This document shows positions 1 to 10,175 of a stretch of 46,903 nt of DNA, piece by piece. A model generated the notes under the pieces. That model saw nothing but the letters and a program-made list of their open reading frames with translations. It searched no databases and had not been told where the DNA came from. Made by a program: the position numbers and the translations under genes. The DNA comes from Melioribacteraceae bacterium (GTDB lineage Bacteria > Bacteroidota > Ignavibacteria > Ignavibacteriales > Melioribacteraceae). Location of the stretch: the NCBI GenBank assembly GCA_015493615.1, contig WGCV01000059.1, positions 1-46,903 on the forward strand, written 5' to 3'. Position 1 is the first letter of the stretch. The number at the start of each line of letters is the position of its first letter.

Positions 1-1
1 A

Positions 2-784
2 ATCGATCCGGTTTATTACGATGATGTAAATCCCGATTGGGTAGTGCCGGCAGGCGAAACCGTATCAATCACTTTCTCGGTTGATATGACAGACGCGGCG
101 AACGACCAGATTCAGGTGCCAACATTTAATCCGGCAACCGACACGGTATGGTGGGTAGCCGAAGAACCGGCGTTTACTTACTTAATGGGCTGGGTTGACA
201 GAGACGATATGAGAGAAGTAATGTTAACCGATCCGGACGGCGATATGGTTTACACAGCAACCTTAAGCGTAACCGGACCGGCATGGAACGGCTTTGAATA
301 CCGTTACGGCTTCAGCGACGCAGACGGCGCGTTCCACGCTGAACCGGCTGGCTTTGCAGACTTTGCCTACAGAGTGCGTTACATTGCAATGACAGGCGCG
401 AGAACGTTTGTACAGCCTTACGACGCGCCGCAAGACCATTGGACTCCGCAGGAAGATAAATCAGACCAGTGGGAAGCAGGTCCTCAAATGAATGGTGTTG
501 GAGACGAAGAAGGAACCGTTGTTAAGTTCGATTTGGGACAGAATTACCCGAACCCGTTCAATCCTACGACAACAATTAAGTTCTCGATACCTCAGAGCGG
601 AATGGTAACATTGGCTGTATATAACTTGTTGGGACAGAAAGTCGCAACATTGGTTAACACCGAAATGAACAAAGGCAGATATGAATACCACTTCGACGCA
701 TCAAAGTTAGGAAGCGGCGTTTACTTCTACAGCTTGAAGGCGGGAAGTTACTCTGCAACCAAGAAAATGATTTTGATGAAGTAA
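2..784 (+). CDS. Secreted protein with T9SS type A sorting domain (5' end missing)
   Basis: The reading frame is open to the left edge of the window, so this is the C-terminal part of a larger protein; the GTG at 44 is internal and not a convincing start. The last ~85 residues form a type IX secretion sorting domain (YPNPFNPTTTIKFSIP, then LLGQKVATLVN, GVYFYSLKAG and a lysine-rich end), so the product is expected to cross the outer membrane by T9SS and be anchored or released outside the cell. The upstream ~150 residues are rich in W, Y, D and G and look like a beta-sandwich of the kind found in carbohydrate-binding or SusE/SusF-like proteins, but I cannot name a family. Codon choice is richer in G and C at third positions than in the next genes, suggesting high expression. 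The enzymatic part, if any, lies outside the window. Confidence 0.85.
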   Translation: MDPVYYDDVNPDWVVPAGETVSITFSVDMTDAANDQIQVPTFNPATDTVWWVAEEPAFTYLMGWVDRDDMREVMLTDPDGDMVYTATLSVTGPAWNGFEYRYGFSDADGAFHAEPAGFADFAYRVRYIAMTGARTFVQPYDAPQDHWTPQEDKSDQWEAGPQMNGVGDEEGTVVKFDLGQNYPNPFNPTTTIKFSIPQSGMVTLAVYNLLGQKVATLVNTEMNKGRYEYHFDASKLGSGVYFYSLKAGSYSATKKMILMK

Positions 785-813
785 TCTAATAATTTCTTTA
801 CACAATTCTTCCA

Positions 814-841
814 GTTGCCCCGGGAGCAATCTCGGGGTAAC
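814..841 (+). terminator. Hairpin after the T9SS gene, possible terminator
   Basis: A 9-bp stem with one G-U pair (GTTGCCCCG at 814-822 with CGGGGTAAC at 833-841) lies in the 75-bp gap between two genes. It is GC-rich against an AT-rich background. No run of T follows, so it may be a weak terminator or a processing/stability hairpin. Confidence 0.35.
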
Positions 842-859
842 TACTATTAAAGGTTGATA

Positions 860-2851
860 ATGATTAAGGTTAAAAAGTTTAAGCAAAAACACAGATACAC
901 TAACACCCTCCGGATTGCATTTCAATCAATAATTTTATTGCTTCTCGTTTATGTGGCTGTTCGTCCATTGTTTGACGGCGGCTATGTAGCGGACTTCGAG
1001 GCATATTGTCCTTTCGGAGGAATTTCAGCGTTCATGAGCAAATTGAATCTCGGTTCACTTTCTTGCACAATGGGAGAAACTCAAATTTTTCTCGGAATAT
1101 TCCTACTTCTCGGGGCGTTTTTATTCGGAAAATTATTCTGCAGTTACATTTGCCCGATTGGTTCTGTGTCGGAATGGCTTGGAAAAATCGGAGATAAGTT
1201 CCATGTGAGAATCAAGATGCCGAACGGTTTGGATAGGGGATTAAGGATTTTTAAATATTTAATTTTATTTGTTTCTGTATATTTTACGATGACAAGCAGC
1301 GAACTATTCTGTAAGGAGTTTGATCCTTATTACGCTGTGGTTACGGGATTTTCCAGTCGAGACATTGTACTTTATTTTGCTTTGCCTGCTGTTATTATCA
1401 CAATTCTCGGCGCAATATTTTTCCGATTGTTCTGGTGCAAATATCTTTGTCCTCTTGGAGCGATTACAAATATTTTTAATAATATAATTCCGACAGTTGT
1501 AGTATTTGCATTATATTTTCTTCTCAGATTATTGGGCGCCGACCTTGGATTAGTCTGGCTTTTGGGCGGACTTGTACTGGTAGGGATGTTCACCGAAGTC
1601 GGATTCATGCGCAGCTTCGGACTAAATCTGACAAAGATAAAACGGAAGCCGTCAACATGTACAATGTGCGGACTTTGCGACGACAGCTGCCCCGAAGGAA
1701 TTAAAGTCTCCGAGTATGAAACAGTTACTCACGTTGATTGCCACCTCTGCACGGATTGCGTTTACGCCTGCCCCGTAAGCAATACGCTTATGGTAAGCAG
1801 TAAAGAAACGCCTAAGCATCTTGTTCCGATAATCACGGTTCTGCTGATTGCCGGCGGATTATTCTTTGCCAATAATTTCGAGTTTGCGACTTTGTCGGAA
1901 AGATGGGGCGGTTTCGATAAACTTGAAAAAGCGCAAGTGCTTGAAATTCCGGGACTGAAAACGGTAAAATGTTTCGGAAGCGCAACGTCATTTAAAAATC
2001 AGATAAGAAGATTTAAAGGAATAAAAGGGCTGGACGCTTACGCGACTTCCCACACGGTCAAAATTTATTACGACCCGAAAGTTACAAACGCTGAAAAAAT
2101 TAAGAGCGAAGTTTTTCAGCCGATGCGAATGAAAGTACGAAGTATTAAACCCGCCGATAATGTTGATTCCGTTACGGTAGCGGAATTCAGAATTGAAAAA
2201 ATGTTCGATAAAGTTGACCACACCAATCTAGTTTACGCGTTGCGCAAGGATAAAGGCGTTTACGGAATCGCGACTCATTTCGGCGAACCGATAATAGCTG
2301 ATATTTATTACAATGCGGCGGTTACTAATCCGGAAGAAATTAGGAAGGCAATGGAAGCCAAAGAAGTAACGATTAAGTATTCCGACGGAAAAGAAGTAAC
2401 GGACGATATTGATTTTGATGTTTATCCCGACTTTAAGGTGAAAAGTAAAATTTCCGTAAACGATTACTTGGCTCAAATGTTCAGCCGTTATGACAGAAAG
2501 TTTAATCATTACAGCAAGTATAAACCTGAAGAGTTAAAGGTTTTGATTTATCCTATGCCTGAAGCCGCTAACTCCGCGCTGGCGCGTCGTCTCGGATATC
2601 TCGTAAGTCATCTCTCCGGCGAGAAAGGAATAGTGCGCTTTGCTACCCGATATATAAACGGTCCGAAAGCGCTTGTGTTTTTTAATCCGAAATTAATTTC
2701 ACTTGATAAGGTGAAAGCAGCGATTTCGTCTCCGGTGATGACTGTTCACTTCAGAGGAGGAAAAATTAAAAAAGTTCCTAATCCATATAAATCAAAACCG
2801 GACGGAAGAGTTCTTTCGGCGGTTGAATTACAGAACACTAAAAAACGGTAA
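860..2851 (+). CDS. Membrane polyferredoxin (NapH/NosR-like) with HMA-like C-terminal modules
   Basis: 663 residues from the ATG at 860, chosen over the TTG at 854 because AAAGG lies six bases before it. The N-terminal half has about five to six membrane segments with NapH/NosR-type motifs CPFGG (C50), CSYICP (C94, C98) and CKYLCP (C193, C197), then two classical 4Fe-4S clusters: C267-xx-C270-xx-C273-xxx-C277 and C294-xx-C297-xx-C300-xxx-C304. Family knowledge says such proteins move electrons across or along the membrane. The ~300-residue tail, after another hydrophobic segment near 325, contains three repeats that look like ferredoxin-fold/HMA domains (about 367-420, 453-510, 560-635), none with the metal-binding CxxC; only a lone C371 remains. 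It is the first gene of a four-gene operon, three bases before the ABC ATPase gene. Electron donor and acceptor are unknown. Confidence 0.85.
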   Translation: MIKVKKFKQKHRYTNTLRIAFQSIILLLLVYVAVRPLFDGGYVADFEAYCPFGGISAFMSKLNLGSLSCTMGETQIFLGIFLLLGAFLFGKLFCSYICPIGSVSEWLGKIGDKFHVRIKMPNGLDRGLRIFKYLILFVSVYFTMTSSELFCKEFDPYYAVVTGFSSRDIVLYFALPAVIITILGAIFFRLFWCKYLCPLGAITNIFNNIIPTVVVFALYFLLRLLGADLGLVWLLGGLVLVGMFTEVGFMRSFGLNLTKIKRKPSTCTMCGLCDDSCPEGIKVSEYETVTHVDCHLCTDCVYACPVSNTLMVSSKETPKHLVPIITVLLIAGGLFFANNFEFATLSERWGGFDKLEKAQVLEIPGLKTVKCFGSATSFKNQIRRFKGIKGLDAYATSHTVKIYYDPKVTNAEKIKSEVFQPMRMKVRSIKPADNVDSVTVAEFRIEKMFDKVDHTNLVYALRKDKGVYGIATHFGEPIIADIYYNAAVTNPEEIRKAMEAKEVTIKYSDGKEVTDDIDFDVYPDFKVKSKISVNDYLAQMFSRYDRKFNHYSKYKPEELKVLIYPMPEAANSALARRLGYLVSHLSGEKGIVRFATRYINGPKALVFFNPKLISLDKVKAAISSPVMTVHFRGGKIKKVPNPYKSKPDGRVLSAVELQNTKKR

Positions 2852-2854
2852 TCT

Positions 2855-3739
2855 ATGGAATATGTTGTTGAAGTAAATAACTTAACGCATTATTACGGTA
2901 AGAAAAAAGTTTACGAAAACCTGAACTTCAAGATTAAAAAGGGAAGCGTTTTCGGATTACTCGGAAAAAACGGAACCGGCAAAACGACGACAATCAATAT
3001 TCTCAACGGTTTCCTTAAACCGAAATCGGGAGAGTGTTTAATTTTCGGCGAGGATTCATACAAACTTTCCCCGGAAACAAAAGCGCGAGTCGGTTTTTTG
3101 ATTGAGGGACATATTCAATATTCCTTCATGAATATTATTCAAATTGAAAAATTCTATTCGCAGTTTTATCCGAGATGGAAAAAAGAGCCTTATTTTGAAT
3201 TGATGTCAAAGCTGAAAGTTTTGCCTAATCAGCCGCTTTCAAAAATGTCGTGCGGTCAGCGTTCTCAGGTTGCGCTCGGACTTCTGCTCGCGCAGGATCC
3301 CGACTTGCTGATACTTGACGATTACTCAATGGGATTGGACGCCGGATATCGACGGCTGTTCCTCGATTACCTTGCCGAATACGCAAAATCCGAAGATAAA
3401 ACGATTTTTATTACGTCGCACATTATTCAGGATTTGGAAGGATTTCTTGAGGATTGCGTAATTCTCGATTACTCGGGAGTCGTTCTCACGATGCCGATAA
3501 AGGAGTTTAAACGGGATTTTAAACAATACCGTTTTGAAAGCGCAAAGGATTTGTTTTTTGAAAAAGATGAAATTGTTGAAAACTTTGAACAGATTAAAAA
3601 CATGGTTACGATTTATTCTTTCAAATCGAAGGAAACAGTTGAAAAATATCTTAAAGACAAAAACATCAATTTTGAAAATTTAGAAGAAGTTCCAATGGAT
3701 CTTGAAGACGCGTTCGTTGGAATTACAGGAAAATATTAG
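2855..3739 (+). CDS. ABC transporter ATP-binding protein, DUF4857-cluster type
   Basis: 294-residue ABC ATPase. Walker A is GKNGTGKTT (residues 37-45), the signature is SCGQR (132-136) instead of LSGGQ, Walker B is LLILDD with D155-D156, where the second position is normally the catalytic Glu, and the switch His is in FITSHI. It starts three bases after the polyferredoxin gene and ends eight bases before the permease gene, so the three are almost certainly co-transcribed. With the following six-helix permease it should form an ABC-2 type exporter or a mechano-transmission complex comparable to NosFY. The two substitutions may be normal for this subfamily; they do not by themselves show the enzyme is dead. 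Confidence 0.88.
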   Translation: MEYVVEVNNLTHYYGKKKVYENLNFKIKKGSVFGLLGKNGTGKTTTINILNGFLKPKSGECLIFGEDSYKLSPETKARVGFLIEGHIQYSFMNIIQIEKFYSQFYPRWKKEPYFELMSKLKVLPNQPLSKMSCGQRSQVALGLLLAQDPDLLILDDYSMGLDAGYRRLFLDYLAEYAKSEDKTIFITSHIIQDLEGFLEDCVILDYSGVVLTMPIKEFKRDFKQYRFESAKDLFFEKDEIVENFEQIKNMVTIYSFKSKETVEKYLKDKNINFENLEEVPMDLEDAFVGITGKY

Positions 3740-3747
3740 GAGAAGAA

Positions 3748-4416
3748 ATGTTTTTATCTTTATCTTACAAAGAATGGTTAAAGACCAGATGGATAATTCT
3801 TATTGCCGCGGTTGTGGGAATTGTTTCGGCGCTTACGATTTTCTTAAATCTCGGAGCTATTTCCGAATTTAACGATGCGAACGCCGTCTGGAATTATGTG
3901 ATTTTTAAGAAATATCTTTTTTACGGCGATTTTATTTACATCCCTGTTTTAATCGGTCTCGCATTGGGGATTTCACAGTTCTATCCTGAAGTAAACAGTT
4001 TAAGATTGAAACTGACTTTGCATTTACCGCTGAAGGAAAACCGCTTGTTGTTTTATATGATTGGTTACGGAACAATAATTATTTTGGCGCTTGAACTTTT
4101 CTTTGCAATTTTGCTTGCGATTGTAACGGCTCACTTTTATCCTTCCGAGATTGTGGTCAGCGAGATTAAAACAATTCTTCCTTGGCTGTTCTCAGGCTTT
4201 GTCGCATACTTCTTTGTAGCTGCGGCAATGGTTGACCCGCAATGGGTAAGGCGCACTGTCTTGGTAGTTTTCGGGTATGCAATTACATCATACTACTTGT
4301 TCGCCGACGGTTATGAAAATTACAACCATTCTCTGCAGTGGTTTTTGCTCATTGCGGTTTTGGAATTTTCATTGATTTTTCTTTCGGGATTCAGATTTAA
4401 AAGAGGCGGCAGATGA
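3748..4416 (+). CDS. ABC transporter permease subunit
   Basis: 222-residue integral membrane protein with about six predicted helices (near 15-35, 65-85, 105-135, 145-165, 170-190 and 195-215). The size and layout fit an ABC-2 type permease half. A ribosome-binding site (AGGAGAAG) precedes the ATG. Its last codons overlap the start of the next gene as ATGA, which argues for translational coupling. The substrate is not visible from sequence; the partner ATPase is the gene directly upstream. Confidence 0.8.
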   Translation: MFLSLSYKEWLKTRWIILIAAVVGIVSALTIFLNLGAISEFNDANAVWNYVIFKKYLFYGDFIYIPVLIGLALGISQFYPEVNSLRLKLTLHLPLKENRLLFYMIGYGTIIILALELFFAILLAIVTAHFYPSEIVVSEIKTILPWLFSGFVAYFFVAAAMVDPQWVRRTVLVVFGYAITSYYLFADGYENYNHSLQWFLLIAVLEFSLIFLSGFRFKRGGR

Positions 4417-5657
4417 AAATCATAAAATTCTCCAGAGTAGTATTGATTCTGACAATAGTAATGGTTTTCTCGATAGTTATTCCGAAATACTATTGGATGA
4501 CTTTTGAAAAACGGGTAAGACCCACAAACTTTATTTACAGCTCCCTGAAAAATGATTTTATAACGATGAAAGCCATTGGCAAAAGAGTTCATTGGTTTGA
4601 CGATAAAAACCGCGAGGTTTCCCGAAGAGAATTTGAGAAGCTGGCTCCTTTATATTATTACCGTAATCTTCTTTATCACGGGGACATGCCTGATTCGTTA
4701 AACGGAGTTAAATTGGATATTGAGGAAATAAAAAAGAACACCATATTTTTTAATATAAAACCGAAGGATATTCTAACTTCCCAAATTCAACTTTTTCCTC
4801 TAATCGAATCAAAACCCGACGGACCGAAACTGAATATGCCGAAGGACTTTTTCCGGATAAAGGAAAGAATGGAATTTATTAATTGTGAATCCAATTCGGT
4901 TGAAGAAAAGCCGAGTCTGCTCTTTACAAATGCTCTGAAAAAAAAGGGGTTTGTTTTTCCCGCGCAAGGAATTTGGGGAAACCCTTCCACAATGAAACCT
5001 TATGACGACGGTTATTTTGTCGTTGATTCCGCTAACAAACTTTTTCATATTAAGAAAGTAAAAGGGGAGCCTGTAGTCAATGTGAAAGCGTTGCCGGAAA
5101 ACGTTCATCCGGTTTATATATTGGTAACGGAAATTAGGCTTCGGGAATTTCACGCCGTAATTATCACGGATAAAAGCGAAGTTTATCTGGTTTCGTTTGA
5201 CAATTATAAATTGGTGAAACTCCCGATTTCCGATTACGATTACAGAAATACACAGTTGCGATTTTCGGGGAATATCCTTACCCGGACTATTTTGTTGAGT
5301 AAAGATAATATTAACGAAGTAATTGTTACGGATAGAAAATACAAAACGATTGCGACGATTTCCGAATCGACTGTTAATAAATGGGAAACCGGCGCCGGGA
5401 CTTTCTTAAAATCTCTCGCTCCTTTTGCTTTAACTTTAAGAAACAGCCATACAACATTTGTAAACTTTTATTTTAAGTTTGCGGGAATTATATCTCTAAT
5501 CGGAATTATCTTATCGCTGATTGTTTATTTTATTATTGACTCCAAATTCCGAACAGAGAAAAAAAGCTCAGCTGTTGATTATATCATAATTCTTTTTACA
5601 GGGGTTTACGGTTTGCTTGCGCTTTTGCTTGTGCCGGATGAATCTTGGAAGGTTTAA
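4413..5657 (+). CDS. DUF4857-type membrane-anchored protein
   Basis: 414 residues. A single N-terminal helix (about 7-25) is followed by ~330 residues likely outside the cytoplasm and two C-terminal helices (about 355-378 and 388-407). The pattern REFEKLAPLYYYRNL...DMPDSLNG, then FNIKPKDI and PLIESKPDGP, matches my recollection of DUF4857, a family described mainly from Bacteroides and of unknown function. The middle region (about 200-330) has repeated short beta-strands (YFVVDSANKLFHI, EVYLVSFDNYKLVKL, NEVIVTDRKYKTIATI) that resemble propeller blades. It overlaps the permease gene by four bases and ends the operon. I infer it is the extracytoplasmic or membrane partner of the ABC pair and the polyferredoxin. 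Confidence 0.75.
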   Translation: MKIIKFSRVVLILTIVMVFSIVIPKYYWMTFEKRVRPTNFIYSSLKNDFITMKAIGKRVHWFDDKNREVSRREFEKLAPLYYYRNLLYHGDMPDSLNGVKLDIEEIKKNTIFFNIKPKDILTSQIQLFPLIESKPDGPKLNMPKDFFRIKERMEFINCESNSVEEKPSLLFTNALKKKGFVFPAQGIWGNPSTMKPYDDGYFVVDSANKLFHIKKVKGEPVVNVKALPENVHPVYILVTEIRLREFHAVIITDKSEVYLVSFDNYKLVKLPISDYDYRNTQLRFSGNILTRTILLSKDNINEVIVTDRKYKTIATISESTVNKWETGAGTFLKSLAPFALTLRNSHTTFVNFYFKFAGIISLIGIILSLIVYFIIDSKFRTEKKSSAVDYIIILFTGVYGLLALLLVPDESWKV

Positions 5658-5708
5658 AGATTGTGTCTCAATTTTGAATTTATATTCATAAAAGTATTTA
5701 AAAGAGAA

Positions 5709-5733
5709 AAAGCTGTCTTCTTAGGACAGCTTT
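5709..5733 (-). terminator. Terminator between convergent genes
   Basis: Perfect 9-bp stem AAAGCTGTC (5709-5717) with GACAGCTTT (5725-5733) and a seven-base loop. On the minus strand it is followed by a T-rich run (TTCTCTTTT), so it should end the superoxide reductase transcript; on the plus strand it may also serve the DUF4857 operon. Confidence 0.75.
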
Positions 5734-5750
5734 CTCAGTATAAATATAAT

Positions 5751-6134
5751 TTATTCTTCAACTTCAACTACAACTTCATCGCTTTGCCACAAACCATGTT
5801 TTGTGCAGTATGCCATTGCAGTCAACTTCATTTTCTTTTTCTGAGGAACTACATAAAAATCCACTTCAACCTGGTCGGGCTGATTTCCTAATGCGCCTGC
5901 TACAAAATCAGCTTGTGCAAGGAATGTTTCACCGTCCCATAACTGAACGTACGCAATGTAATGATCGAAATCGTCCGGATGTTTATATTCCTTCCCGACT
6001 TTAACTTTAACTTTGTATTTCTCTCCTTTTTTTGCATTGCCTTCAGCATAAACAAAAGGCGAGTGTCTGTCGATGTAATCTTTTTTCGCTTCTTTGTCAA
6101 TCTGCGAAATATCTTGATATCTGTTAATGTTCAT
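5751..6134 (-). CDS. Superoxide reductase (neelaredoxin / class II desulfoferrodoxin)
   Basis: 127 residues. It reduces superoxide to hydrogen peroxide in the cytoplasm of anaerobes and microaerobes, using electrons from rubredoxin-like donors. The Fe(His)4Cys centre is visible: H24 in DRHSP, H52 in YKHPDD, H58 in FDHYI, and C110/H113 in YCTKHGLW. There is no N-terminal desulforedoxin domain, so this is the one-iron form. The sixth-ligand Glu found two residues before the first His in many members (E-K-H) is Asp here (D22-R-H24). The start has a strong site (AAAGGAG seven bases before the ATG). The gene is monocistronic between a terminator and an AT-rich divergent promoter region shared with eno. 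Confidence 0.9.
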   Translation of the reverse strand: MNINRYQDISQIDKEAKKDYIDRHSPFVYAEGNAKKGEKYKVKVKVGKEYKHPDDFDHYIAYVQLWDGETFLAQADFVAGALGNQPDQVEVDFYVVPQKKKMKLTAMAYCTKHGLWQSDEVVVEVEE

Positions 6135-6455
6135 TTTAAATCTCCTTTAAATGATTTTACAATTAATTTTATATAGGAACTGATTCATAATGTTTGAAAA
6201 ATATTATATCTCAAAGATAATATTTTATAATTATTCCGCAATAAAAAATACATTGGGTCTTTTAATCAACGTTATATTTATTATTGCTTGAAATTTATTT
6301 AGACGAACAGCTATACGGGATCAAATATATTTCCAAAGGTTTCCAATAAAAATTTAATTGTTAATTGTGGAACATATTTTAATCTGTTGAGTAAAATTTT
6401 TAATGTAATTTTATTTTTTAATAAACTGAAAAATTCATAAAAAAACGAGGATGAA
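6135..6455. other. Divergent promoter region between superoxide reductase and eno
   Basis: 321 bp of very AT-rich DNA without a supported ORF. It must hold both promoters. I see no convincing pair of -35/-10 boxes that I would place with certainty; the only distinct structure is the inverted repeat annotated at 6198-6226. The eno side ends in a ribosome-binding site ACGAGGA before the ATG at 6456. Confidence 0.5.
6198..6226. promoter_or_regulatory. Inverted repeat upstream of superoxide reductase gene, possible operator
   Basis: AAAATATTAT (6198-6207) and ATAATATTTT (6217-6226) are perfect 10-bp inverted arms separated by nine bases, 64 bp before the superoxide reductase start. Size and AT-rich symmetry recall Fur/PerR-family boxes, but it is not a consensus match and AT-rich DNA produces such repeats by chance. 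Confidence 0.3.
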
Positions 6456-7733
6456 ATGTTAAATAACAAAATAACCGGCGTTAGAGGAATGGAAATTTTA
6501 GATTCGCGTGGGAATCCCACCGTGCGAGTTTATGTTGAATTATCAGACGGAACGGAGGCGGTCGCTTCTGTCCCTTCCGGAGCGAGCACAGGCGAAAACG
6601 AAGCGGTTGAATTACGCGACGGAGACAAAAGCAGATACGGAGGTAAAGGCGTTTTAAAAGCGGTGGAAAATGTCAACAAAGTTCTATCTGAAGTTGTTAT
6701 GGGAATGCCTGCGCACGAGCAAGCTTTAATCGACAAAAAGATGATTGAAGCCGACGGAACGGAAAATAAATCAAACTTAGGAGCTAATGCAATACTCGGA
6801 GTTTCAATGGCGGTGGCTCGCGCTGCTGCCGAGTCCGCTAAAGTCCCGCTCTATCAATACCTTGGCGGCGCGGGCGCAAGAAGAATTCCCGTCCCGTGCA
6901 TGAATATCTTAAACGGCGGAGAGCATGCCGACAACAGTGTTGATATTCAGGAGTTTATGGCAATACCTGTAGGCGCTCCTAATTTCAGAGAAGGTTTGCG
7001 CTATGTCGCCGAAACGTTTCACACGTTAAAAGGTATTTTGAAGAAGCGCGGATTATCAACCGGAGTTGGGGATGAAGGGGGCTTTGCTCCTAATCTGAAA
7101 AGTAACGAGGAAGCCGTTGAAACGATTATCGAAGCTATTGAAAAAGCCGGCTACAAACCCGGCGAAGATATTGCAATCGGTCTTGACAGCGCGGCAAGTT
7201 CTTTCTCAACCGATTTGAAAGGTTCATACGAATTAAAATGGTCGGGCGGGGGGAAGAAAACCGACGATGATTTGATTGCTCTCGGCGAGGAATGGATTTC
7301 AAAGTATCCTATTATCCTTTGGGAAGATCCTCTTGCCGAAGCCGACTGGGAAGGTTTCAGGAAGTTTACCGCAAAGTTGGGAGATAAAGTGGAAGTTGTG
7401 GGCGACGATATTTTTGTTACAAACGTTAAGTTTATCAGTCGCGGAATTAAAGACGGAACCGCCAATTCATCGTTGATTAAACTCAACCAAATCGGAACCG
7501 TTTCCGAAACAATCGAAGCCGTAAGAATGTGCCGGGATGCAGGCTGGCGTTATTTTATCTCGCATCGTTCGGGAGAAACAAGCGACGCATTCTTAGCTGA
7601 TTTTGCCGTAGCTATGGATGGAGGACATTTGAAAACCGGCTCCGCAAGCAGAAGCGAAAGATTGGCAAAGTATAATCGTCTTCTTGAAATTGAAAATGAA
7701 TTAGGCTCCGCAGCGCTTTACTATTGGAAATGA
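6456..7733 (+). CDS. eno: Enolase
   Basis: 425 residues, the usual length. Converts 2-phosphoglycerate to phosphoenolpyruvate in glycolysis; cytoplasmic dimer, Mg-dependent. Clear family motifs: [14 protein letters not shown] at the N-terminus, the acid/base Glu in [10 protein letters not shown] (E207), the catalytic Lys in IKLNQIGT (K342) and the SHRSGET loop. Start supported by ACGAGGATGAAATG. It stands alone between the AT-rich divergent region and a strong bidirectional terminator shared with the mla operon on the other strand. Confidence 0.98.
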
Positions 7734-7802: not shown

Positions 7803-8675
7803 CTATAAAACTTTTACTTCGAAATATTTCTTTGGATTTTTCTTAATATCCTTCAATAACGAATCAAGCGCAATTACGGAACTGTTCAAATTATTGTATA
7901 AATCTTCATTTGTGTTCAGTTGTCCCAGACTTCCTTTTCCGTTGTTTATATTTGAAATAAGTTTATCGAGACCTTTTGCAGCCGATGTTGAGCTTGAGAG
8001 CATTTTGCTTAGTTCAGCCGAGTTTTTATTAAGCGAATCAATTAAATCCGAAAGTTTACTTTTATTCTTATTTGTAAATTCACTGATGTCTGAAAGTGAA
8101 TTTTTCAAATCCCCATTGAGGAGTTTGTTGATACTTTTTATTGTTCTCTGCAATCCGGCGAAAGTGGACGACAAATTATCCGCTGTTTTCGTTCCCGTCA
8201 ACTGATTCAAGTTGTCGAGGAGTTTATCAATTTTCGGACTTAAATCGGTAATCTGCGTAATTGCATCTCCGAGACTCGGAGTAACTCCGCCCGTAACGGT
8301 AGCGCCGCTTTCCAGATACTTATTCGATTTCCCGGGTAGGATTTCAAGAACTTTACCGCCGATCATGCTGTAATCCCGGATTACAAATCGTGAATCGACC
8401 GGGATTTTTTTTACCCGTTCAACTTTGGCTAAAAGCAGAATTCCTTTATCCGTAATTCCGGTTGAAGTAATTGTGCCGACCTTCAAACCGTTGTAAAACA
8501 CCTCGTCGCCTACGCTTAATCCATTGGCGTTTTGTACGAGCACTTTCAGATGTAATCCGTGAACAAATATGTTTGATTTGCCCAACCATAAAATCCCGAA
8601 AATAACAATTAAGGTTGCAACGGACATCGCAAGTCCTATCATGAATTCGCTTCTTTTAAAGTTATCTGAGTTCAA
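7803..8675 (-). CDS. mlaD: MlaD-like MCE domain protein of phospholipid transport system
   Basis: 290 residues. One N-terminal membrane helix (about 12-32) is followed by an MCE domain (about 35-115; LKVLVQNANGLSVGDEVFYNGLKVGTI) and a long, largely helical tail (about 140-270) rich in Asn, Ser and Lys. MCE proteins form hexameric rings on the periplasmic face of the MlaFE complex and move phospholipids between the inner and outer membranes. The gene overlaps mlaF by 14 bp and the three genes mlaE-mlaF-mlaD are in the standard order. No mlaA, mlaB or mlaC homologue is adjacent, as often seen outside Proteobacteria. Confidence 0.88.
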   Translation of the reverse strand: MNSDNFKRSEFMIGLAMSVATLIVIFGILWLGKSNIFVHGLHLKVLVQNANGLSVGDEVFYNGLKVGTITSTGITDKGILLLAKVERVKKIPVDSRFVIRDYSMIGGKVLEILPGKSNKYLESGATVTGGVTPSLGDAITQITDLSPKIDKLLDNLNQLTGTKTADNLSSTFAGLQRTIKSINKLLNGDLKNSLSDISEFTNKNKSKLSDLIDSLNKNSAELSKMLSSSTSAAKGLDKLISNINNGKGSLGQLNTNEDLYNNLNSSVIALDSLLKDIKKNPKKYFEVKVL

Positions 8676-9399
8676 TTTTACCTCTTATAAAATCATGAAA
8701 AATTTTGTCTTCAACATCCCACATTTTTTTTGCGTCACAGACGGTGATAATTTCCCCTTTATAAAGCATTCCGACTTTATCGGAAATTTGCTCCACGCCG
8801 GTAATGTCGTGACTGATTATTAGGGAAGTTATATTCAGCTCGTCGTTAAGTTTTTTAATTAATGCGTTAATAACATTTGAAAGAACAGGATCTAAGCCTG
8901 TAGTCGGTTCGTCATAAAGAAGATATTTCGGTTTCATGGCAATGGCGCGGGCTATTGCAACGCGTTTCATCATTCCGCCGCTCAACTCCTCCGGATACGT
9001 GTCGTTAATGTTTTCCAGTTCAACAAGCTCAAGGGATTTGTCGATCAATTCTTTTCGCTCTTCCTTACTGAAGTGTTTCTGTATTTGAAGAGCAAGATCA
9101 ATATTTTCCTCTATTGTCATCGAATCCCATAGCGCTCCTTCCTGAAATACCATTGCGGTCTTAGGGCGTATTTTCTTGTTAAAATCCGATTCGCTGAAAT
9201 TTTTGGTATTGATGCCGTCGATAGTAATTTCGCCGTCGTCCGGCGTAAGCAAACCGAGGATAGATTTGAGAAGAACGGATTTTCCCGTTCCGCTTTTCCC
9301 GATTACGCTGAAAATAATTCCTTCGTCAACGGTAAGATTTACTCCCGCTAAAACTTTTTTGTTTCCGAACGCTTTATGTAAATTTCTAATTTCTATCAT
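8662..9399 (-). CDS. mlaF: MlaF-like ABC ATPase of phospholipid transport system
   Basis: 245 residues. Complete ABC ATPase: Walker A GKSGTGKS (34-41), Q-loop in MVFQEGALWDS, signature LSGGMMKR, Walker B LLYDEPTTGLDP and switch His in IISHDI. The SGGM signature and EGALWDSMT after the Q-loop are typical of MlaF. It powers lipid movement through MlaE with MlaD. The start overlaps the mlaE stop by four bases (ATGA-type coupling). Confidence 0.93.
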   Translation of the reverse strand: MIEIRNLHKAFGNKKVLAGVNLTVDEGIIFSVIGKSGTGKSVLLKSILGLLTPDDGEITIDGINTKNFSESDFNKKIRPKTAMVFQEGALWDSMTIEENIDLALQIQKHFSKEERKELIDKSLELVELENINDTYPEELSGGMMKRVAIARAIAMKPKYLLYDEPTTGLDPVLSNVINALIKKLNDELNITSLIISHDITGVEQISDKVGMLYKGEIITVCDAKKMWDVEDKIFHDFIRGKIELR

Positions 9400-10175
9400 A
9401 TCACAAAATATAATGCCGCCGAGATTAAATAATCGAGCATAAGAATATCAACCGAAGACCAAACAACCGCGAGCGTTGTCGCTTGTCCTACGCCTTTAGC
9501 TCCCCGTTTGGAATTGATTCCGAAGTAGGAGCCGAAAAGAACGATTACTATTCCGAATATATATGCTTTTATTAAACTTGTAATTACGTCGCTAATGTAA
9601 AAATCGTGCCGCATTCCTTTTACGAATCCTTCCCAACTTAATGCGATTGCAAAATGGGATGAGAAAAAACCGGATAAAATTCCTACTACATCTGCAAAGA
9701 CGAGAAGCATAGGCACTGCCAGCATTGCCGCGACTAATCTCGGCATAACTAAAAATTCAATCGGATCGATTGCAAAACTTCTTAATGCATCCAATTGTTC
9801 GGTAACCTTCATTGTACCGAGTTCCGCTGAGATTCCCGCCGCTACTCGTCCGGAAAGAATTAAGCCGATTAATATCGGTCCCATTTCCAGCAGAATGGAG
9901 CGGAGGATTAAGCCGCCTTCCATCCAGTGCGGCGTATATGGATTCATCTGCGTCCCTATTTGCACGCCGAGCGCCAATCCGATAAAAGCTGAAGTAATTA
10001 TAACAATGGGGAAAGATTTTCTTCCGATATAGTGAAACTGTTCTATTACTTGTCTGGTGTAGATGGGAAGTTTGCGGATAGCGACAAATGCCTGGAAAAG
10101 CATTATCCCTATTTTGCCGTATTCGGAAATGAAAAAGTAAGTAAACGCTCCCAGTCGTTCAAAAAATTTACGCAT
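9396..10175 (-). CDS. mlaE: MlaE-like permease of phospholipid transport system
   Basis: 259 residues with about five to six membrane helices. The MlaE core is clear: GRVAAGISAELGTMKVTEQ, followed by ALRSFAIDPIEFLVMPR and FADVVGILSGFF. It forms the membrane dimer driven by MlaF. The ATG at 10175 is preceded directly by one arm of a 16-bp inverted repeat (10176-10230), so its ribosome-binding site could be buried in a hairpin. It is first of the three mla genes and lies 64 bp downstream of the CBM48 gene on the same strand. Confidence 0.93.
   Translation of the reverse strand: MRKFFERLGAFTYFFISEYGKIGIMLFQAFVAIRKLPIYTRQVIEQFHYIGRKSFPIVIITSAFIGLALGVQIGTQMNPYTPHWMEGGLILRSILLEMGPILIGLILSGRVAAGISAELGTMKVTEQLDALRSFAIDPIEFLVMPRLVAAMLAVPMLLVFADVVGILSGFFSSHFAIALSWEGFVKGMRHDFYISDVITSLIKAYIFGIVIVLFGSYFGINSKRGAKGVGQATTLAVVWSSVDILMLDYLISAALYFVI

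Follow-up and report, generated by a model that had tools for sequence, protein, structure and literature searches.

What is the function of a compact operon that couples a membrane polyferredoxin to an ATP-binding cassette (ABC) transporter and a DUF4857 protein? The question is raised by positions 860 to 5657 of contig WGCV01000059.1 (assembly GCA_015493615.1) from a Melioribacteraceae bacterium. This entire contig of 46,903 nucleotides, numbered C59 in genome G000, was analyzed and is called the window here. A polyferredoxin, an ABC ATPase with its permease, and an extracytoplasmic partner also make up NosR-NosDFY, and a preliminary description of the sequence had proposed a Nos-like maturation or delivery system for a client enzyme that it could not name. 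The comparisons presented here argue for another function. The four genes probably make up the 3' half of an operon for the TonB-dependent acquisition of a metal, most likely iron, with reductive release of that metal and an accessory complex of ABC transporter and propeller protein.

The neighborhood of DUF4857 genes

DUF4857 loci were collected by scanning named genomes with one sequence motif, and the best 80 of the 111 confirmed loci were compared. They are found in Ignavibacteriota, Calditrichota, Fidelibacterota (Neomarinimicrobiota), KSB1, Verrucomicrobiota, and Bacteroidota. Neighbors were labeled with single-sequence phmmer seeds at E 1e-5, so that the counts are lower bounds, and the YCF48 labels partly reflect shared tails of the type IX secretion system (T9SS). 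Forty-five loci, each flanked by 8 kb or more on either side, form a full-flank subset, the other 35 of the 80 being left out of it. As the loci end at 10 kb, more distant polyferredoxins are missed, such as that of G263 at C49:16015, outside L022.

The synteny of ABC ATPase, permease, and DUF4857 is not a matter of chance, the ATPase being present in 75 and the permease in 73 of the 80 loci, and in 45 and 43 of the 45 full-flank ones. The steadiest partners of the DUF4857 loci are a TonB receptor (54 of 80; 40 of 45, within 10 kb of DUF4857) and DUF4876 (50 of 80; 38 of 45), both of which lie outside the window. DUF6850 was labeled in 43 and 30 loci, respectively. An unbroken same-strand run joins DUF4857 to the receptor in 26 and to DUF4876 in 27 of the 45 full-flank loci, and elsewhere these genes are divergent or further off. 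A FecR homologue (10 of 80) or an extracytoplasmic function (ECF) sigma factor (5 of 80) is found beside the receptor, and the receptor of L018 has an STN domain just below cut-off.

The redox module is more variable. The preliminary description had stated that its proposal would fail if most DUF4857 neighborhoods lacked the polyferredoxin. Most do lack it: it was labeled in 17 of the 80 and in 8 of the 45 loci, both lower bounds, and a PepSY_TM_like_2 protein is found instead in Bacteroidota (41 of 80; 30 of 45). Seven full-flank loci have the polyferredoxin alone, 29 the PepSY protein alone, and one has both. By locus number, the polyferredoxin is present in 8 of the 14 full-flank loci in L026-L057 and in none of the 31 in L058-L105, and the PepSY protein in 3 of 14 and 27 of 31. 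A DUF4857 tree was built with 79 rows, i.e., 78 loci and the window (L026 and L075, with short open reading frames (ORFs), were left out; 17 rows with short flanks are unlabeled). The polyferredoxin rows, three of them metagenome-assembled genomes titled Bacteroidetes, fall within a side of 33 rows that holds Ignavibacteriota and Calditrichota. Most PepSY rows belong to the Bacteroidota side of 46 rows, and over the 62 labeled rows each of the two labels changes at least five times. Which of the two modules occurs is bound to lineage. Three His residues are invariant in all 41 PepSY_TM_like_2 homologues from L026-L105, which fits, without proving, the heme ligands described for FoxB and modeled for HiuB (PMC13001220; the articles cited by PMC number were available in part, and statements taken from them refer to those parts).

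Co-occurrence was assessed in a sample of 296 genomes, treated as independent, with one-sided p values. DUF4857 was found in 12 of them, DUF4876 in 29, the polyferredoxin (at E 1e-60 or better) in 10, and NosZ in 99. DUF4876 accompanies DUF4857 in 10 of its 12 genomes (p 1e-9) and the polyferredoxin in 9 of its 10 (p 2e-9), and the polyferredoxin co-occurs with DUF4857 in 7 of 10 (p 2e-9). The polyferredoxin is present in 7 of the 8 DUF4857 genomes of the window's class and in none of the 4 outside it. DUF4876 occurs without DUF4857 in 19 of the 296 genomes, so that the outer-membrane module of TonB receptor and DUF4876 has a wider distribution than the ABC part. In G062 and G216 the order is TonB receptor-DUF4876-DUF6850-YCF48-M28-M16-polyferredoxin; the stretch examined has no ABC, permease, or DUF4857 gene, and DUF4857 is absent from both genomes. 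Given this layout, the ABC trio looks accessory, and the polyferredoxin appears to belong to the uptake module.

These data bear on two other explanations. The polyferredoxin, ABC, and DUF4857 proteins might mature or repair a periplasmic metalloenzyme, in the manner of the Nos system. NosR does give the best NCBIfam score for the polyferredoxin (40.7 bits vs. a cut-off of 1000), the ABC-2-type pair has an extracytoplasmic partner, and in G172 (L115, 5919-9847) a related, more distant polyferredoxin follows NapC/NirT-type and cytochrome c552 (NrfHA) genes, a context that counts against an exclusive link between polyferredoxin and uptake. Such a role is nevertheless very unlikely, since the proteins that steadily accompany DUF4857 serve uptake, the model of DUF4857 itself is of propeller type (see below), and NosZ is not associated with DUF4857 (4 of 12, p 0.61) or with the polyferredoxin (5 of 10, p 0.21). 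NosZ has no match in the window genome, whose assembly is 96.8% complete, by the search that found it in 99 of the 296 genomes; this survey led us to reject Nos maturation as the best reading. Alternatively, the ABC trio might be an immunity pump that expels toxic or antibiotic peptides, the TonB module being a mere frequent neighbor. The ATPase is nearest to PmtA and DrrA, and 4 of 36 permease homologues match ABC2_membrane_4, but the proximity of the receptor, the strong genome-level co-occurrence with DUF4876, and the iron induction as a single block in Bacteroides thetaiotaomicron (PMC10434189) make this explanation highly improbable.

The proteins encoded in the operon

The preliminary description of the packing was accurate: the four genes are on the + strand, and the recomputed ORF positions give gaps of 3 and 8 bp followed by a 4-bp overlap. 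The features of this part of the window are as follows (pLDDT, predicted local distance difference test; HMA, heavy-metal-associated; TM, transmembrane).

2..784, + strand: 3' end of the gene of a T9SS-secreted protein (Por_Secre_tail, E 1.2e-12), its frame open from base 2 and cut by the contig start
813..843, + strand: strong hairpin with a 13-pair stem and no T run, between the secreted-protein and polyferredoxin genes
860..2851, + strand: membrane polyferredoxin (Pfam, profile, alignment, hydrophobicity, AlphaFold model)
1913..2119, + strand: HMA-like domain 1, residues 352-420 (profile and structure match)
2168..2449, + strand: HMA-like domain 2, residues 437-530, without Cys (structure match)
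2480..2809, + strand: third C-terminal ferredoxin-like domain, residues 541-650 (AlphaFold blocks with pLDDT 82-95; weaker matches, VIA Z about 6)
2855..3739, + strand: ABC ATPase of the ABC-2 (DrrA/PmtA/ABCA-like) type (ABC_tran, E 9e-21)
3748..4416, + strand: permease of the ABC-2 type, 222 aa, about six TM segments (Pfam matches of homologues, hydrophobicity)
4413..5657, + strand: DUF4857 protein (PF16149, E 6.6e-85)

Pfam confirmed the assignments of the ABC ATPase, the DUF4857 protein, and the polyferredoxin (Fer4_5, E 4e-13; Fer4_8 and Fer4_10 at cut-off). The last is a putative transmembrane reductase, with an N-terminal TM region that harbors Fer4_5 motifs, followed by two 4Fe-4S motifs (C267 to C304); the Cys motifs of the membrane part are invariant in the alignment. 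After the last hydrophobic segment (residues ~318-342) come tandem HMA-like domains, predicted to lie outside the membrane. The ~310 C-terminal residues, overlooked in the preliminary description, are ferredoxin-like domains that match HMA domains. Domain 1 matches the N-terminal domain of CopA (1p6t) by profile (E 2.4e-5) and by structure (VIA Z 8.3, root-mean-square deviation (rmsd) 2.5, 66 aligned; model pLDDT 67-86 there), and domain 2 the copper-binding HMA7 domain 3dxs (VIA Z 9.7, rmsd 2.0, 74/74 aligned). Sequence profile and modeled structure thus both point to the HMA domains of copper ATPases. The Pfam HMA model itself scores 13.2 bits on the polyferredoxin, below its cut-off of 24.8. 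In canonical HMA metallochaperones the metal site is a CxxC motif. It is absent here, reduced to a single Cys in domain 1, Cys371 of a KC[FY]GS motif, which all 16 aligned sequences share. The AlphaFold model (mean pLDDT 72.4, predicted template modeling score (pTM) 0.48) is weak in the membrane part, and therefore the C-terminal domains alone were used.

In agreement with the preliminary description, no flavin mononucleotide (FMN)-binding domain was found in the polyferredoxin by Pfam at E up to 1. The NosR, NapH, and CcoG models all score far below their family cut-offs (for CcoG, 17 bits vs. 316.7). A single full-length polyferredoxin of this type is encoded in the window genome; further matches, on contigs C39 and C44, rank below it (the latter a weak stretch). 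That of C39 (L112, 5343-6467) is shorter (374 aa), 37-40% identical, without an HMA match, and located beside T9SS-tail proteins. In a Caldithrix locus (L043, 7255-12071), genes of the NADH-dehydrogenase type and for an Fe-only hydrogenase are found downstream of the polyferredoxin gene.

These domains raise the possibility that the metal is copper. The TonB receptor would then import a Cu complex, the polyferredoxin would act as a CcoG-like cupric reductase, and its HMA-like domains would take Cu(I). The HMA folds that it matches are mostly copper proteins, namely Cu chaperones and P-type ATPase domains, and the polyferredoxin CcoG was reported to reduce Cu(II) but not Fe(III) (PMC7558416), two observations that keep copper as an alternative to iron. 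We consider it unlikely, as the HMA motif retains only one Cys in all 16 sequences, and no P1B ATPase or known cuproprotein was found among the selected neighbor proteins run through Pfam. Dipyridyl, used for iron depletion, also binds other metals. The Bacteroides homologue is nonetheless classified as an iron-depletion gene (PMC10434189), which also speaks against copper.

The ATPase has the signature loop MSCGQ, of which SCGQ is invariant in 23 of 23 sequences, where LSGGQ is usual. Among curated models, PmtA, DrrA, and GldA come closest to it, and its best PDB match is ABCA3. The preliminary description had regarded a grouping of the ABC pair with plain exporters as an argument against its proposal. 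The nearest models are indeed of DrrA/PmtA exporter type, though all score far below cut-off, and such a grouping is conceivable. The permease has no Pfam match over cut-off and no PDB match by profile search, but its assignment holds: it has about six hydrophobic segments, and the four of 36 aligned homologues mentioned above match ABC2_membrane_4 with E values down to 8e-8.

DUF4857 models as a membrane-anchored protein with an extracytoplasmic β-propeller-like domain, in a TM-propeller-TM-TM arrangement (AlphaFold pLDDT 91.8, pTM 0.86). The best matches of the model by Foldseek and VIA are WD40-type propellers, with middling Z scores of up to 8.8, and a profile search against the PDB gave a single match at E 0.78. 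NosD has a β-helix fold, and the proposed likeness of DUF4857 to NosD is not supported by the model; NosD-like folds are not listed among its Foldseek and VIA matches, although absence from such lists is no proof. In many Bacteroides the protein is shorter, ~342-366 aa, and two aligned versions lack the C-terminal TM pair. The window genome has a single copy, and a scan of viral contigs yielded no DUF4857 relatives. In 15 of 18 selected loci measured, the window included, the permease frame runs 1-7 bp into that of DUF4857, and in two genomes of one genus, G149 and G268, the two are fused into one protein. The fusion indicates that they probably act as one unit, and it supports the earlier assignment of DUF4857 as the extracytoplasmic partner of an ABC-2-type permease. 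Near the fusion genes (L024, 5006-7048; L025, 2618-4606) are different TonB receptors and a small cytochrome c-like protein.

The proposed upstream half

The window begins within the gene of a T9SS-tail protein at a contig end, which indicates that the operon is cut upstream. The sole DUF4876 gene of the genome is among the last genes of contig C43. The gene of a TonB receptor (876 aa) precedes it, and those of a DUF6850-like protein and YCF48 follow, before a 755-aa ORF that runs off the end of the contig. The DUF6850-like protein matches its homologue in L018 by phmmer (E 3e-111) and scores 17.6 bits, below cut-off, with the Pfam DUF6850 model. The 755-aa ORF matches residues 3-451 of a T9SS protein of L030 with 39% identity, and the C-terminal 85 aa of the window fragment 2..784 are 60-61% identical to the end of the intact T9SS protein in L029-L031. 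T9SS tails resemble one another, and the tail identity is therefore supportive only. The fragment is probably, judging from these alignments, the other end of the truncated C43 ORF.

The order DUF6850-YCF48-T9SS protein-polyferredoxin-ABC-permease-DUF4857 is intact in L029, L030, and L031; in L031 a gap of 172 bp precedes the ABC gene. These loci end 10 kb upstream, before any position for a TonB receptor or DUF4876. In L027, L033, and L037, TonB receptor-DUF4876-DUF6850-YCF48-ABC-permease-DUF4857 are found on one contig, and the polyferredoxin is downstream of DUF4857. Similar contig breaks separate the two operon halves in G009 and G035. Taken together, we regard the adjacency of C43 and C59 as a strong inference from sequence comparison.

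In the window, the ATG at 860 is supported by AAGG at 850-853. The hairpin 813..843, just 5' of this ribosome-binding site, has an RNA fold z of -3.71, and none of 200 shuffles was equally stable. Its core palindrome has a single match in the whole genome, and the Rfam search of positions 1-7000, hairpin included, gave no match. It is a possible processing or attenuation site. Promoter and terminator scans gave counts no different from those of shuffles. On the other side of the operon, a superoxide reductase-like gene (5751-6134, - strand; Desulfoferrodox, E 3.9e-23) faces the DUF4857 gene in convergent orientation, and a terminator-like hairpin separates the two. Further on, consecutive genes for an ABC permease, an ATPase, and an Mce-like protein (7803-10175, - strand) resemble what we take to be an Mla lipid-transport set.

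A model for the operon and its relation to known systems

Several lines of evidence converge on uptake of a metal, most likely iron: the TonB receptor and DUF4876, the ECF sigma factors and FecR homologues, two FeoB_C-bearing ORFs in the window genome, and published expression data. In B. thetaiotaomicron, the BT3625-BT3633 locus, which encodes DUF4857, a hypothetical protein, an ABC protein, two PepSY TM proteins, a fimbrillin, DUF4876, and a TonB receptor, was induced 37- to 128-fold by dipyridyl and is raised in colitis data cited in the same article (PMC10434189). It is this induction of the Bacteroides version under iron depletion that makes iron the most likely metal. Similarly, the DUF4876-TonB locus PG1019-22 of Porphyromonas gingivalis was up 21- to 215-fold (PMC10434189), and a DUF4876 gene is, with HmuY, among the strongly hemin-responsive genes of that species (PMC10470040). 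PepSY proteins have been described as ferri-siderophore reductases (PMC13001220).

The complete operon would encode, in order, the TonB receptor, the lipoprotein-like DUF4876, the DUF6850-like outer-membrane protein, a YCF48 T9SS protein, a second T9SS protein, the polyferredoxin, the ABC ATPase, the permease, and DUF4857. The receptor would take in a metal complex, most likely of iron, whose peptide or protein part might be processed by M16 and M28 peptidases in some relatives. Cytoplasmic electrons would cross the inner membrane via the Fe-S clusters of the polyferredoxin or, in Bacteroidota, via the heme-type PepSY protein; the metal would be reduced near the HMA-like domains, and Fe(II) released for FeoB. 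The ABC-2 ATPase and permease, together with the membrane-anchored propeller, may form an ATP-driven accessory that acts on the periplasmic complex, its most likely role being to expel the carrier once emptied or to force its release, and not that of a classical importer. The gene set of the relatives, the location of the two halves at two contig ends, and the lineage-bound exchange of polyferredoxin and PepSY protein are read directly from sequence. The redox step draws on knowledge of the families, and the substrate, the contig join, and the direction of ABC transport are what we infer. Of the function first proposed for these genes, the redox-linked, ABC-coupled character stands, with a likely metal substrate, while the Nos analogy and the client enzyme do not.

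The peptidases might have a larger part, in a special case of this uptake model that resembles Fus-type piracy: an iron protein or metallopeptide would be imported whole and cut by M16 or M28 enzymes. The M16 label was given in 16 of the 80 and 10 of the 45 full-flank loci, and M16 proteins of ~930-990 aa with an HxxEH motif are present in 12 of the 80; the other four labeled loci (L061, L079, L083, L089) hold shorter proteins of 427-481 aa and were not counted. M28 was found in the three loci in which an adjoining 580-aa ORF was tested (L022, L113, L114). The M16 protein of L033 aligns nearly full length with PqqL (E 8.7e-18), but its best matches are other zinc proteases (4nnz, 3ami, 3amj), with 6b03, which we take to be FusC, at 2e-12. 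Fus-related clusters are reported to be widespread (PMC6793856). The TonB receptor, however, has no PDB match by phmmer, and M16 is found in a minority of loci and does not adjoin the operon in the window genome, which makes this variant unlikely.

A number of observations weigh against the proposed uptake operon. Neither polyferredoxin nor PepSY protein is nearby in 8 of the 45 full-flank loci, and G149 and G268 carry DUF4857 without DUF4876. In the examined stretches of the window genome no M16 or M28 gene lies beside the operon, M16 matches being elsewhere in the genome. C43 and C59 share no sequence overlap, and the full nine-gene order is seen in no single relative. Most ABC-2 transporters are exporters. 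No Fur-box enrichment was detected in the upstream regions of 39 TonB genes (mean 10.03 of 15 vs. 9.97 in shuffles) with an E. coli-type core consensus, from which the local one may differ. The literature search found no iron experiment for the polyferredoxin branch, and the openly accessible literature on DUF4857, DUF4876, and the BT36xx tags yielded PMC10434189 for the DUF4857 locus, further articles on DUF4876 or single tags, and no functional study. To these are added the NrfHA context in G172, the copper character of the HMA folds, and the specificity of CcoG for Cu(II).

Most likely, the four genes are the inner-membrane half of a TonB uptake operon whose general kind is known, but in which one electron-transfer module is exchanged for another in an unusual way. 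More tentatively, it might represent an undescribed class of metal acquisition in the Fibrobacteres-Chlorobi-Bacteroidetes (FCB) group, in which a TonB receptor feeds a periplasmic station for proteolysis and reduction, an HMA-fused polyferredoxin replaces the heme PepSY reductase there, and the station is coupled to an ABC-2 pump with a DUF4857 propeller lid. In the available parts of the literature examined, no polyferredoxin is described as reducing an imported metal complex. If correct, the model would assign a function to DUF4857, DUF4876, DUF6850, and the polyferredoxin-HMA subfamily at once, and explain an iron-depletion-induced, colitis-raised locus of gut Bacteroides. Two unrelated membrane electron carriers, an Fe-S polyferredoxin and a heme-type PepSY protein, would take the same place in a single uptake system, an exchange that is directly testable in Bacteroides.

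Among known systems, NosR-NosDFY likewise combines a polyferredoxin with an ABC ATPase, a permease, and an extracytoplasmic partner. The present operon differs in that its genome has no NosZ match, its polyferredoxin lacks an FMN domain, its partner protein is of propeller type, and its setting is that of TonB uptake genes. The role of NosFY and NosD is in CuZ assembly (PMC7558416). CcoG/RdxA is likewise a membrane polyferredoxin with a C-terminal periplasmic domain, which is Ig-like in CcoG and HMA-like in the window protein (PMC7558416). Fus systems (FusA, FusC, PqqL, YddB) share a TonB receptor, a periplasmic M16 protease, and iron-dependent expression, but M16 is not constant in DUF4857 loci, and the available part of PMC6793856 mentions neither reductase modules nor DUF4857, nor Bacteroidetes, ABC transporter, PepSY, polyferredoxin, Ignavibacteri, or Class III. 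The PepSY xenosiderophore systems, HiuABC with the FoxB-like HiuB (PMC13001220) and BT2063-65 (PMC10434189), combine a TonB receptor with an inner-membrane PepSY protein, and reductive release with Feo downstream has been proposed for them; no ABC-2/DUF4857 complex, polyferredoxin, DUF4876, or DUF6850 is named in those parts. As for BT3625-BT3633, no polyferredoxin is listed there in the available part of PMC10434189, but the locus shares with the DUF4857 operons the ABC ATPase, DUF4857, a hypothetical protein, PepSY TM, DUF4876, and the TonB receptor, and it is induced by iron depletion.

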